Positions 39,454-46,048 of a stretch of DNA of 64,000 nt are shown in pieces. The stretch is from contig CAMCVI010000004.1 of assembly GCA_945881885.1 (NCBI GenBank), positions 62,001-126,000 of the forward strand, in the 5' to 3' direction. Both the position numbers and the translations under genes were made by a program. Source of the DNA: Chryseobacterium gleum (GTDB lineage: Bacteria; Bacteroidota; Bacteroidia; Flavobacteriales; Flavobacteriaceae). The notes under the pieces are model-generated. The model had not been told where the DNA came from and did no database searches. It worked only from the letters and a program-made list of their open reading frames with translations. Positions within the stretch are counted from its first letter, which is position 1. Each line of letters begins with the position of its first letter.

Positions 39454-40725
39454 TTATATTCCAAAAGCAGTTTTAATATCTGCAACACGGTCTAATTTTT
39501 CCCATGTAAATAATTCCACTTCTAACGTTTTTACAGTACCATCAGGCGATTTAAACGTTTTGGTTACGACTTCATTTTTACGCCCCATGTGTCCGTAAGC
39601 AGCAGTTTCGCTATAAATCGGCGTTCTTAATTTTAAATTTTGCTCAATTGCATAAGGTCTTAAATCAAACAATTGCGCTACTTTATCAGAAATTTGAGAA
39701 TCTAATAAACCGTTTTTAGCAGTACCGTATGTGTTTACATAAATGTTACATGGTTTTGCCACTCCAATAGCATAAGAAACTTGAACCAAAACTTCAGTAG
39801 CCACTCCTGCAGCAACTAAGTTTTTAGCAATATGACGCGCTGCATAAGCTGCACTTCTGTCTACTTTACTTGGGTCTTTTCCTGAGAATGCACCACCACC
39901 GTGAGCACCTTTTCCACCATAAGTATCAACAATAATTTTTCTACCTGTTAAACCAGTATCACCATGTGGGCCTCCAATTACGAATTTTCCAGTTGGGTTA
40001 ATGTGGTATTCAATTTTATCATTAAATAAATGAGCATATTGAGGGTATTTAGCTAAAATTCTAGGAATTAAAATTTCAATAATATCTTTTTTGATTTTTG
40101 CTAACATAGAAGTTTCCTCATCAAAATCATCATGTTGTGTGGAAACTACAATTGAGTCAATTCTTACTGGCACATTGTCATCGTTGTATTCTAAAGTAAC
40201 TTGAGATTTTGCATCTGGACGCAAATAAGTTATTGCTGAATTTTCTCTACGTAATTCGGCTAATTCTTGTAATAATTTATGCGCTAAATCTAATGCTAAT
40301 GGCATTAAATCAACTGTTTCGTTTGTTGCATAACCAAACATAATTCCTTGGTCACCAGCGCCTTGTGCGTTAGCTTTCGATTCAAAATCTGTAGCGGCAG
40401 CTCTGTCAACGCCTCTATTAATATCATCAGATTGATCATGAATAGCTGATAAAACACCACAAGAATTGGCTTCAAACATGTATTCGCTTTTTGTATAACC
40501 AATTTTTCTAATTACATCACGTGCAATAGATTGAACATCTAAATAAGTATTTGATTTTACTTCACCAGCTAAAATTACTTGCCCGGTGGTTACTAAAGTT
40601 TCACAAGCTACTTTTGACGATGGGTCAAATGCTAAAAAATTGTCAATTAATGCGTCACTAATTTGATCTGCAATTTTGTCTGGATGTCCTTCACTCACAG
40701 ATTCCGACGTAAATAAATATGCCAT
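39454..40725 (-). CDS. metK: S-adenosylmethionine synthase
   Basis: [71 protein letters not shown]. Confidence 0.98.
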
Positions 40726-40752
40726 AATTATAAATTATAAATAATAATTAAC
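40726..40752. repeat. A/T-only heptad-like repeat upstream of metK
   Basis: ATAATTA TAAATTA TAAATAA TAATTAA (low complexity, weaker member). Confidence 0.4.
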
Positions 40753-40789
40753 GAAAAAATTGCAAGGAAATACTAAAGTAGGATAGATG

Positions 40790-40842
40790 CTGCTTTAGCA
40801 TTTTTTTACGAGGTTGCAATCAGTTCAAATTTTTCCTCTTTA
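40790..40842 (-). ncRNA. SAM-II (SAM_alpha-like) riboswitch candidate in the metK leader
   Basis: Minus-strand AGAGGAAAAATTTGAACTGATTGCAACCTCGTAAAAAAATGCTAAAGCAG follows the SAM-II layout: P1 GAGG/CCTC, loop ATTTGAACTGATTGCAA, downstream ATGCTAAA, pseudoknot CTG/CAG. Confidence 0.8.
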
Positions 40843-41031
40843 ATTCTGGTGCAAAGTTATAAAATCAATTTGATATTTAAATCATAAATTATAATTAAAA
40901 TTTTATTTTCAATAATGAACCATATTTATAGATAAATTTTCTTAATATTATAGTATATAATGAAAAATAATCTAAATTAAACCAATAAAAAATTAAAAAT
41001 TAGAAAATATTTCTTTTTTCATTTTTTTTAC

Positions 41032-41039
41032 TACATTTG
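41032..41039 (+). promoter_or_regulatory. Bacteroidetes -7 promoter motif TACATTTG
   Basis: TAnnTTTG match ~22 nt upstream of the SAM-I aptamer. Confidence 0.6.
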
Positions 41040-41061
41040 CACTGTTCATAAACATACTGAT

Positions 41062-41167
41062 TGTTATCACGAAAGGCGGAGGGATTAGACCCATTGAAAC
41101 CTTAGCAACCCTACACTTGTAGAAGGTGCTACATTCTATTCCGATTTTTAAATCGGAAACAGATAAC
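41062..41167 (+). ncRNA. SAM-I (S-box type) riboswitch upstream of split metH
   Basis: gttatc P1 strand, acgaaaggcggagggattagacccattgaaaccttagcaaccct core, aaggtgctacattct, closing gataac. Confidence 0.93.
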
Positions 41168-41278
41168 TAGAAAATTTTACATTTTTCGCTGATATCAATT
41201 TTTAAGTTTAGATTCTTGCCCTTTCATTTTTTTGAAATTGTCGAGGTTTTATTTAAAAAAATATAATATCATTAAAAA

Positions 41279-42295
41279 ATGTTAACTAATATCACAAATA
41301 CAACAGAATCGGCTAAAAGTAGCATTCACCAAGCCATTAAAGAAAGAATTTTAGTTCTAGATGGCGCAATGGGTACCATGTTGCAACGCAATAAATTTGA
41401 AGAAGAAGATTTTCGAGGCGAACGTTTCAAAAATTTTCCGCATCCTTTAAAAGGAAATAATGACCTACTTTCCATTACTCAACCGGAAGCTGTAAAAGAA
41501 GTCCACCGTTTGTATTTTGAAGCCGGTGCAGATATTGTGGAAACCAATACTTTTTCTGGCACTACAATTGGTATGGCCGATTATCATATGGAAGATTTAG
41601 TGTATGAATTAAATTACCAATCCGCTAAAATTGCTAGAGAAGTTGCAGATGAATTTACAGATAAGCCTCGTTTTGTTGCTGGTTCAATAGGACCAACTAA
41701 TAGAACGGCTTCTATGTCGCCAGATGTCAATGATCCAGGTTTTCGTGCCGTAACTTTTGATGATTTACGAATCGCCTACAAACAACAAGTGGAAGCTTTA
41801 ATAGATGGCGGTTCGGATGTGCTTTTAGTTGAAACTATTTTCGATACCTTAAACGCTAAAGCAGCACTTTTTGCGATAGAAGAAGTAAAAGAAGAAAGAA
41901 ATTTAGACATTCCAATTATGGTTTCAGGAACTATAACAGATGCCTCAGGACGAACTTTGTCTGGACAAACCGTAGAAGCTTTTTTAATTTCTATTCAACA
42001 TATTCCTTTGTTAAGTATCGGGTTTAATTGCGCTTTAGGCGCAGATCAATTAAAACCCTATTTAAAACGTTTGGCACATCACACGCAGCTAAATATATCC
42101 GCACATCCAAATGCTGGTTTGCCAAATGCCTTCGGAGAATATGACCAAACACCAATGGAAATGCAAGCTCTAATTAGGGAATATTTACAAGATAATTTGA
42201 TAAATATTATAGGAGGTTGTTGTGGTACTACTCCCGATCATATAAAATTAATAGCTGAAGTAGCAGCAGAGTTTAAGCCAAGAAAATCAGCATAA
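41279..42295 (+). CDS. metH: Methionine synthase, N-terminal part (homocysteine S-methyltransferase domain)
   Basis: [60 protein letters not shown]; ends before the pterin-binding domain. Confidence 0.95.
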
Positions 42296-42324: not shown

Positions 42325-45015
42325 ATGCCAAGAAACAATAAAATAAATTTACAACTTTCAGGTTTAGAACCACTTTTCGTTACCGAAGAATCTATTTTCG
42401 TGAATGTTGGTGAACGAACGAATGTTACAGGTTCCCGAAAATTTCTTCGTTTAATTAAAGAAGAAAAATACGACGAAGCACTTTCGGTTGCTCGTGAGCA
42501 AGTAGAAGGTGGTGCCCAAATTATTGATGTTAACATGGATGAAGGAATGTTAGATGGCGTATTTGCTATGACAAAATTCCTAAATTTAATTGCTGCCGAA
42601 CCTGATATTGCTCGTGTTCCAGTTATGATTGATAGCTCGAAATGGGAAATTATTGAAGCAGGTTTAAAAGTTGTACAAGGTAAAGCGGTGGTAAATTCTA
42701 TTTCTTTAAAAGAAGGTGAAGTAGTTTTTATTCATCACGCCAAACTAATAAAACGATATGGTGCAGCTGTAATTGTTATGGCTTTTGACGAAGTTGGACA
42801 AGCAGATAATTACCAAAGAAGAATTGAAATTTGTAAAAGAAGTTACGATATTTTGGTAAACCAAGTTGGTTTTCCTGCCGAAGATATTATTTTCGATCCT
42901 AATATTTTTCCTGTTGCAACGGGTATGGACGAACATAAATTAAACGCTTTAGATTTTTTTCAAGCAACAAAGTGGATTCGTGAAAACCTGCCTTTTGCTA
43001 ATATTTCTGGTGGTGTAAGCAATGTTTCCTTCTCTTTTCGTGGTAACGATAAAGTCCGTGAAGCCATGCATTCAGCTTTCTTATATCATGCCATTCAAAA
43101 CGGAATGACTATAGGAATTGTTAATCCGGAAATGTTAGAAATTTACGATGAAATTGATCCCATTTTATTAGAACATGTTGAAGATGTGCTTTTAAATAGA
43201 AGAGACGACGCCACAGAACGATTGTTAGATTTAGCCGAAAGTTTTAAGGGCGATTTTAAGATAAATGAAAAAGCTATTGCCGAATGGCGAAATGGTTCTA
43301 TTCAGGAACGATTGACTCATTCATTAGTAAAGGGAATAGACGAATTCATAGAAATTGATGTTGAAGAAGCCAGATTACAAGCCAAAAAAGCTATTGAAGT
43401 TATAGAGATAAGCTTAATGAATGGTATGAACGTAGTTGGCGATTTATTTGGTAGCGGAAAAATGTTTTTACCGCAAGTTGTAAAATCTGCACGTGTAATG
43501 AAAAAAGCTGTTGCATATTTATTACCATATATCGAAGAAGAAAAAGATTCAACTGCTTCGTCTTCGGCTGGAAAAGTTTTGATGGCAACCGTTAAAGGTG
43601 ATGTTCACGACATTGGAAAAAATATTGTATCAGTAGTTTTGGCCTGTAATAATTTTGAAATTATCGATTTGGGAGTTATGGTTCCACCAGAAAAAATTAT
43701 TGAAGCTGCCATAAAAGAAAATGTAGATATTATAGGTTTGAGTGGCTTAATTACGCCTTCATTAGACGAAATGGTGTATTTGGCCAAAGAAATGGATAAG
43801 TTGAACATCAAAATCCCAATAATGATAGGTGGTGCTACCACTTCGCGTGCACACACGGCAGTAAAAATTGCTCCAGAATATAAGGCAACTGTTGTCCATG
43901 TTAATGATGCTTCAAGAGCAGTAACAGTCGCTTCGAATTTATTAAATACGGAATCAAAAACAGATTTTTCAATAGCGTTACGTAAAGAATACGATACGTT
44001 ACGAGATGGCTATTTGAATAGAGCTAGAGAGAAAAATTTCTTAACAATTGATGCAGCTCGTAAAAATAAATTCAAAATAGATTGGGATAATTATAAGCCC
44101 ATACAACCTAATTTTATTGGAACAAAAACAGTTGAGGTTGAATTGTCTGAATTAGTTGATTTTATTGATTGGACACCATTTTTTCAATCGTGGGAATTAT
44201 ATGGAAAATATCCAGCTATTTTAACCGATGAGGTCGTAGGCGAACAAGCAACAGATTTATTTAAAGATGCACAAAATATGTTAGCCAAAATTGTTTCTGA
44301 AAAATGGTTTACGGCAAAAGGAATTTTAGGAATTTTTCCAGCAAATACTATAAATGATGACGATATCGAAGTATATTCTGAACCTTTAACGCAGAATTCA
44401 AAACCTAAAACCTTTTTATCATTAAGACAACAATCTCAAAAAACGGCTGGTGCGACCAATATTGCATTAGCTGATTTTATTGCACCAAAAGAAACTGAAA
44501 TTCAGGATTTTATAGGCTGCTTTTGTGTAACTACTGGATTTGGAGTAGATGAAAAAGCAGCAGAATTTGAAAGACAATTAGACGATTATAATGCTATTTT
44601 AACCAAAGCTTTAGGCGACAGATTAGCAGAAGCTTTCGCGGAATATTTGCATCTAAAAGTTCGAAAAGAAATTTGGGGATATGCTTCAGACGAACAACTT
44701 TCGAATCAAGAATTAATTAAAGAAAATTACAAAGGAATTCGTCCAGCACCTGGTTATCCTGCATGCCCAGATCATTTAGAAAAACCAACTATTTGGGATA
44801 TCTTAAATGTGGAGGAAAATATCGGTGTAAAATTAACTGAAAGTATGGCAATGTGGCCCGCTTCATCTGTTTCAGGATATTATTTTGCCCATCCTGAAAG
44901 CAACTATTTTGGGTTAGGAAAAATAAAATCTGACCAAGTAGCAGATTACGCAAAAAGAAGAAACATTACAATAGAAAAAGCAACCAAATGGTTAGCGCCA
45001 AATATTACAGATTAA
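42325..45015 (+). CDS. metH: Methionine synthase, C-terminal part (pterin-binding, B12-binding and activation domains)
   Basis: [73 protein letters not shown]. Confidence 0.96.
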
Positions 45016-45091: not shown

Positions 45092-46048
45092 ATGAAAGTA
45101 ACAGAACACATAGAAAATGCTAATGGAAAACCTTTGTTTTCTTTTGAAATTTTACCGCCTTTAAAAGGTCAAAATATTCAATCTATTTTTGATAGTATTG
45201 ATCCGTTGATGGAATTCAATCCGCCGTTTATTGATGTCACTTACCATCGAGAGGAATATGAATTCAAAGAATTATCAAATGGTTTATTGCAAAAGAAAAT
45301 TGTAAAAAAGCGTCCTGGTACGGTTGGTATTTGTGCTGGAATTCAAAATAAATACAACGTAGATGCCATTCCGCATATTCTGTGTGGTGGTTTTACAAAG
45401 GAAGATACCGAAAATTTACTAATAGATTTGGATTTTTTAGGAATTGATAATGTAGTGGCACTTCGAGGAGATGCAGTAAAAAGTGAAATTTACTTCAAGC
45501 CAGATAAAGAAGGTCACGCTTATGCTTCAGAATTGGTTTCGCAAATAAACGATTTAAATAACGGTATTTATTTAGATGAAGATTTGCAAAATTCTTCTAA
45601 AACTGATTTTTGTATCGGAGTATCTGGTTATCCCGAAAGACACATGGAAGCACCAAGTTTAGACAGCGACATTCATTTTTTAAAACAAAAGATTAAAAAC
45701 GGTGCCGATTATATTATTACGCAAATGTTTTTTGACAACCAGAAATTTTTTGATTTCGTAAACAAATGCAGAGCTGCTGGAATTACGGTGCCAATTATAC
45801 CTGGGTTAAAACCTATTTCTACAAAAAAACAGCTAAATTTAATTCCACACCGATTTAGTTTAGAATTACCAGATGATTTAATTATGTTAGTTGTAAAAGC
45901 AAAGGATAATGATGCCGTTAAACAAATTGGAATCGAATGGTGCGCCCAACAAAGTAAAGAACTTGTTGCAGCTGGAATACCCGTACTCCATTATTACTCA
46001 ATGGGTAAAGCAGAAAATATTAAAGCTATTGCTAGTCAGATATTTTAA
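45092..46048 (+). CDS. metF: Methylenetetrahydrofolate reductase
   Basis: FSFEILPPLKG, FIDVTYHRE, VVALRGD, ADYIITQMFFDNQKFFDFVNKCRAAGITVPIIPGLKPI. Confidence 0.97.
   Translation: MKVTEHIENANGKPLFSFEILPPLKGQNIQSIFDSIDPLMEFNPPFIDVTYHREEYEFKELSNGLLQKKIVKKRPGTVGICAGIQNKYNVDAIPHILCGGFTKEDTENLLIDLDFLGIDNVVALRGDAVKSEIYFKPDKEGHAYASELVSQINDLNNGIYLDEDLQNSSKTDFCIGVSGYPERHMEAPSLDSDIHFLKQKIKNGADYIITQMFFDNQKFFDFVNKCRAAGITVPIIPGLKPISTKKQLNLIPHRFSLELPDDLIMLVVKAKDNDAVKQIGIEWCAQQSKELVAAGIPVLHYYSMGKAENIKAIASQIF

Follow-up and report, generated by a model that had tools for sequence, protein, structure and literature searches.

The intergenic region between metK and metH1 of a Flavobacterium genome raises the question of why two unrelated RNA aptamer classes for S-adenosylmethionine (SAM) stand back to back on two steps of one pathway, and whether they would act jointly or each for its own genes. 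We scanned the window (the whole stretch of 64 kb analysed here) with cmscan against 4227 Rfam families and obtained exactly two matches above the gathering score, both of them in this intergenic region. Infernal assigned the forward-strand RNA to SAM-I (RF00162; 78.2 bits, E 1.1e-16, cut-off 44.4) and the reverse-strand RNA to long-loop SAM-II (RF01726; 66.2 bits, E 1.5e-10, cut-off 44). A preliminary description had placed two unrelated SAM aptamer classes divergently on metK (40790-40842) and on metH-metF (41062-41167); the Rfam matches bear out this arrangement, and its coordinates are correct within a few bases of those in Table 1. The Infernal check that it proposed, with RF00162 and SAM_alpha (RF00521), succeeded for the former on the forward strand, whereas RF00521 gave no match in the window even at E<=1 and was rejected as the SAM-II model here; RF01726 fits instead. 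It is important to note that Rfam clan members were collapsed to their best match, and that RF01726 is listed without a clan. The RF01726 model leaves the pseudoknot pairs unscored. The SAM-I aptamer belongs to the 5' leader of a set of methionine/SAM genes: metH1, which begins 110 nt further on, then metH2 and metF, in a gene order kept in relatives. The SAM-II aptamer lies in the 5' leader of metK, in the window as well as in every other locus with enough sequence.

Table 1. Genes, promoter elements, aptamers and mirrors of the metK-metH locus (positions in the window).
Feature	Positions	Strand	Remarks
metK, S-adenosylmethionine synthetase	39454..40725	-	423-aa ORF; follows RF01726 aptamer in relatives
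SAM-II mirror	40754..40778	-	CUUUAGUAU (40770-40778) and UUGCAAUUUUUU (40754-40765)
SAM-II (long-loop) riboswitch aptamer of metK	40785..40844	-	RF01726, model 1-60 of 60, not truncated
-7 promoter element of metK	40852..40859	-	TAACTTTG; TAnnTTTG by sequence
-7 promoter element of metH	41032..41039	+	TACATTTG; TAnnTTTG by sequence
SAM-I (S-box) riboswitch aptamer of metH1-metH2-metF	41061..41169	+	RF00162, model 1-108 of 108
SAM-I mirror	41183..41199	+	UUUUCGCUGAUAUCAAU; complementary to aptamer 5' strand AUUGUUAUCACGAAAGG (41060-41076)
metH1, homocysteine methyltransferase domain of split metH	41279..42295	+	338-aa ORF
metH2, folate-, B12- and activation-domain part of split metH	42325..45015	+	896-aa ORF
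metF, methylenetetrahydrofolate reductase	45092..46048	+	318-aa ORF

Directly upstream of each aptamer there is a separate -7 element of the form TAnnTTTG, which is the Bacteroidetes -7 promoter consensus (PMC7366714). Of 117 SAM-II leaders, 93% have this motif in the 50 nt ahead of the aptamer, typically about 6 nt away from it, compared with 4% of shuffles; in its exact form it stands ahead of the aptamer in 41% of the 96 SAM-I leaders and in 6% of their shuffles. Judging from the position of its element, transcription of metK would be expected to start near 40846, where the SAM-II aptamer has its 5' edge. Because each aptamer is directly downstream of a -7 element, the two mRNAs, which do not overlap, would each begin with their aptamer or shortly before it, and because these divergent transcripts have separate promoter elements, each gene would have its own switch. 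A tandem riboswitch, with two aptamers in series on one transcript, was ruled out, since the aptamers are on opposite strands and each has its own promoter element. On the same grounds, the term "dual sensor" in the preliminary description is an overstatement, and nothing that we found shows a joint reading of SAM by the two RNAs.

Nor is the layout singular; it is common to a whole related family and to several Flavobacterium species. Our study identified RF01726 in 52 and RF00162 in 42 of 60 relatives; in an order-wide sample of 298 Flavobacteriales genomes with a completeness of at least 90%, the numbers are 219 and 203, and 192 genomes carry both classes. This stands against a survey of 2007 in which no species had both SAM-I and SAM-II (PMC2258182), a statement that is the only one on their co-occurrence that we found in open-licence papers. 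In the family of genome G038 (54 genomes), both classes are present in 26 members, one of them counted with a SAM-I match below the cut-off, and in all 26, judging from the full match lists of both models, they are divergent within one intergenic region, usually 60-130 nt apart and with the metH1 start 46-60 nt past the SAM-I aptamer. Two further families (G050, G058) have the same divergent layout. In addition, we collected 80 named loci via metH1, nearly all of them from Flavobacterium, and called pairs by sequence pattern, with an Infernal check on L051, L052, L054, and L058. The pair lies within 350 nt in 11 of them (including F. filum, F. stagni, F. lutivivi, and F. croceum) and 1-5 kb apart in many others. 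One of these separated pairs encloses genes that, read from their translations, are metY-, osmC-, metX-, and homoserine dehydrogenase-like, and two others enclose a secreted-protein gene.

Some relatives show variations of the locus. Within the G038 family, G087, G126, G354, G358, and G360 (four of them from one genus) have SAM-I and no RF01726 match. In many same-genus SAM-II aptamers, P1 is separated from the 3' pseudoknot strand by an additional hairpin (about 45 nt), so that their matches measure about 104 nt instead of 60, with lower scores (G003-G008, G010, G015, G017, G020, G026, and G030-G032; loci L042, L043, L044, and L050). The Flavo-1 RNA (RF01705) is found antisense in the metH leader of L054 (6761-6914), L056 (6773-6916), L058 (6779-6922), and L071 (6845-6919), always on the reverse strand; it lies past the SAM-I aptamer in three species, L071 is without a SAM-I match, and the window is without Flavo-1. 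The genome labels of L051 (titled Chryseobacterium gleum) and L116 (titled Bifidobacterium breve) look wrong because their met genes are Flavobacterium-like; their MetH1 identities to that of the window are 99% and 87%, respectively.

Special attention was given to the sequence that follows each aptamer. In both leaders a downstream stretch, here called the mirror, is complementary to the 5' half of the aptamer, far above chance and with covariation. In the window, the partners of the SAM-II mirror within the aptamer are AUGCUAAAG (40793-40801) and AUUGCAA (40814-40820); their duplex reaches -18.0 kcal/mol against -11.5 kcal/mol for shuffles (p=0.02), and the metK leader fold, with a z of -2.0, contains the AUGCUAAAG/CUUUAGUAU hairpin. 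The SAM-I mirror of the window is weak, as the best duplex has p=0.14 and is located elsewhere in the leader; in the close relatives L051, L052, and L053 the values are p=0.03, 0.01, and 0.01. The mirror of Flavobacterium metK leaders runs in the order CUUUAGC, UUGCAAU, UUUUUUCCUC, which complements, reversed, the aptamer segments GCUAAAG, AUUGCAA, and GAGGAAA, and CUUUAGC is present in 90% of these leaders against 4% of shuffles. Other families mirror different parts of the aptamer, as in family f3, where GCCAAAUC is set against GAUUUGGC.

On average, duplex energies are better than those of shuffles in all clades and for both aptamers. The mean aptamer-leader duplex for SAM-II is -20.3 kcal/mol in f1 (-13.5 shuffled) and -20.5 kcal/mol in f3 (-11.7 shuffled); for SAM-I it is -19.3 (-10.8) and -20.1 (-10.0) kcal/mol, with 21 of 21 f3 leaders at p<=0.05. 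A leader is also fitted better by its own aptamer than by a swapped one (interaction of -3.4 kcal/mol for SAM-II and -4.0 kcal/mol for SAM-I; p=0.0002 in permutation tests that leave shared ancestry in). In SAM-I the covariation is two-sided: a pair that is G-C in f1 (56 of 61 segments) is C-G in f3, f10, and f15 (21 of 21). In SAM-II, all 19 f3 sequences retain 8 consecutive pairs of the helix. A caveat for SAM-I is that a mirror directed at the P1 strand is in part a repeat of the 3' P1 strand of the aptamer itself. The mirror downstream of both aptamers, beyond chance and covarying, is what is new in our study; both aptamer classes, the SAM-II long-loop RNAs of Bacteroidetes, and same-strand tandems are already known (PMC2864571, PMC9481103). 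Open-licence papers yielded no description of a divergent SAM-I/SAM-II pair or of the mirror, and the layout may be noted elsewhere.

Computation has established both aptamers, their genes and positions, a layout that is conserved, and mirror pairings that covary across families. Our preferred reading, to which we give a probability of about 0.7, is that the locus contains two independent SAM-off riboswitches on divergent transcripts, with mirrors that compete for the 5' halves of the aptamers. The complementarity predicts that at low SAM, in a SAM-free fold, the mirror would capture the aptamer 5' half, and that a second, SAM-bound fold would release it. At high SAM both aptamers would fold, SAM-II ahead of metK and SAM-I ahead of metH1-metH2-metF, and expression of both transcripts would fall, so that SAM might limit its own synthesis as well as methionine regeneration; SAM-II would regulate the gene that makes SAM, and SAM-I the genes that supply its precursor. 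We infer both the SAM binding and the OFF sense of control, and the genes and the presumed ligand agree with known SAM-off logic (PMC1273637, PMC2258182).

That the SAM-II-like RNA might be a degenerate or altered-ligand relative, and not a SAM sensor, could be argued from the window copy, in which a few aptamer positions depart from the consensus and whose binding of SAM is a prediction. The match is, however, full-length, well above the cut-off, always upstream of metK, and conserved across the order, and we consider this extremely unlikely. It could also be proposed that the two RNAs, or their transcripts, affect one another as a composite dual sensor and that selection acts on their proximity itself, given their back-to-back position in every G038-family genome with both classes, in several Flavobacterium, and in two other families. 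But the two transcripts do not overlap, and since many Flavobacterium have their aptamers 1-5 kb apart with other genes between (methionine genes in one case), proximity is dispensable and the recurrent layout therefore fits the clustering of methionine genes, which leaves the composite sensor very unlikely. A further proposal concerns staged control in Flavobacteriales: high-affinity SAM-I would stop methionine regeneration at low SAM, low-affinity SAM-II would stop metK only at high SAM, and the same mirror platform would have evolved on two unrelated aptamers. Published affinities differ in the direction of this staging, at about 4 nM for SAM-I and about 10 uM for SAM-II, but were obtained in other bacteria and with a truncated SAM-II RNA (PMC1273637), and we regard the scheme as rather doubtful.

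The output step of the two SAM-off riboswitches would probably depend on the clade. In several relatives, namely for metH in f10 and in some Flavobacterium and for metK in f3, the released mirror could pair with the region of the start codon, and SAM would therefore shut off translation. This pairing is above chance in f3 metK (9/21, binomial p 3e-7), f1 metH (6/30, p 0.003), and f10 metH (2/2); it takes the form CUGAUAAC...GUUAUCAG-AUG in the metH leader of L106, with comparable hairpins in L096, L103, L108, L109, and L114, and appears to point to a classical translational shut-off. It has been reported that this phylum is without Shine-Dalgarno sequences and that the structure of the start region tunes initiation (PMC6847099), which makes a translational off switch reasonable. 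In Flavobacterium metK leaders such pairing is no more frequent than expected by chance (2/66), and sequestration of the start codon was rejected for them. Differences in accessibility over whole leaders are small or mixed. Neither metK nor metH1 of the window has an evident anti-mirror, and the translational step is unsupported there because the start codon is predicted to be almost equally accessible in both states (0.35 vs 0.33 for metK, 0.36 vs 0.38 for metH).

Given that Flavobacterium metK leaders are strongly C-rich over G and the genome encodes Rho, Rho-dependent termination is a reasonable rival for metK: SAM would free a pyrimidine-rich leader that loads Rho, and the mirror would hide this leader at low SAM. 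Past the aptamer, Flavobacterium metK leaders have C 0.244 and G 0.080, against C 0.118 and G 0.136 upstream of 49 other ORFs of the window; neither an intrinsic terminator nor start-codon pairing accounts for the output of these leaders, and Rho-linked riboswitches exist (Hollands 2012, as described in a paper citing it). However, the excess of C could simply stem from complementarity to the purine-rich strand of the aptamer, the leader offers little length for Rho to load, and there is no direct Rho signal, so that we entertain this mechanism only tentatively. Ordinary intrinsic terminator/antiterminator platforms would agree with the terminators that usually follow Proteobacterial SAM-II (PMC2258182) and with the U-run that ends the SAM-free mirror helix AUUGCAA/UUGCAAUUUUUU of the window. 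Yet no intrinsic terminator was found on the correct strand downstream of either aptamer in the window, the U-run is a feature of the fold without SAM, so that SAM would have to activate metK, and the f3 mirror helix has no directly adjoining U-run; such platforms are unlikely. The sole terminator-like site (40773-40798) is on the forward strand, antisense to the metK leader; it is the alternative hairpin of metK read on that strand, then a T-run, and no forward-strand gene directly precedes it. For the SAM-off riboswitches of the window, the output may be translational control or Rho-dependent termination.

With two aptamer classes next to each other, one for each of two steps in a single pathway, the locus offers a natural test of why cells keep two sensors for one metabolite. 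The mirror offers a concrete, mutable hypothesis for how riboswitches may act where, as in this phylum, Shine-Dalgarno sequences are lacking (PMC6847099).

Compared with known systems, the metH RNA has the full aptamer match of SAM-I (S-box, RF00162) and its location upstream of the methionine genes metH and metF; Firmicutes have a terminator/antiterminator, whereas here a mirror of the aptamer 5' strand lies downstream. The metK RNA is a full match to the SAM-II long-loop aptamer (RF01726; Weinberg 2010, PMC2864571), reported for Bacteroidetes and marine samples, and differs by its downstream mirror, whereas terminators are frequent in Proteobacteria, and by a longer inserted hairpin in some Flavobacterium. 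With the SAM-II of RF00521 (SAM_alpha; Corbino 2005, PMC1273637) it shares the overall aptamer class and the predicted ligand, but that model has no match here at E<=1. Tandems of SAM-II/SAM-V and of SAM-II with SAM-I/IV (PMC9481103) also bring two SAM aptamer classes close together; those act in series on one transcript and one gene, whereas here the two aptamers occupy opposite strands and precede different operons.
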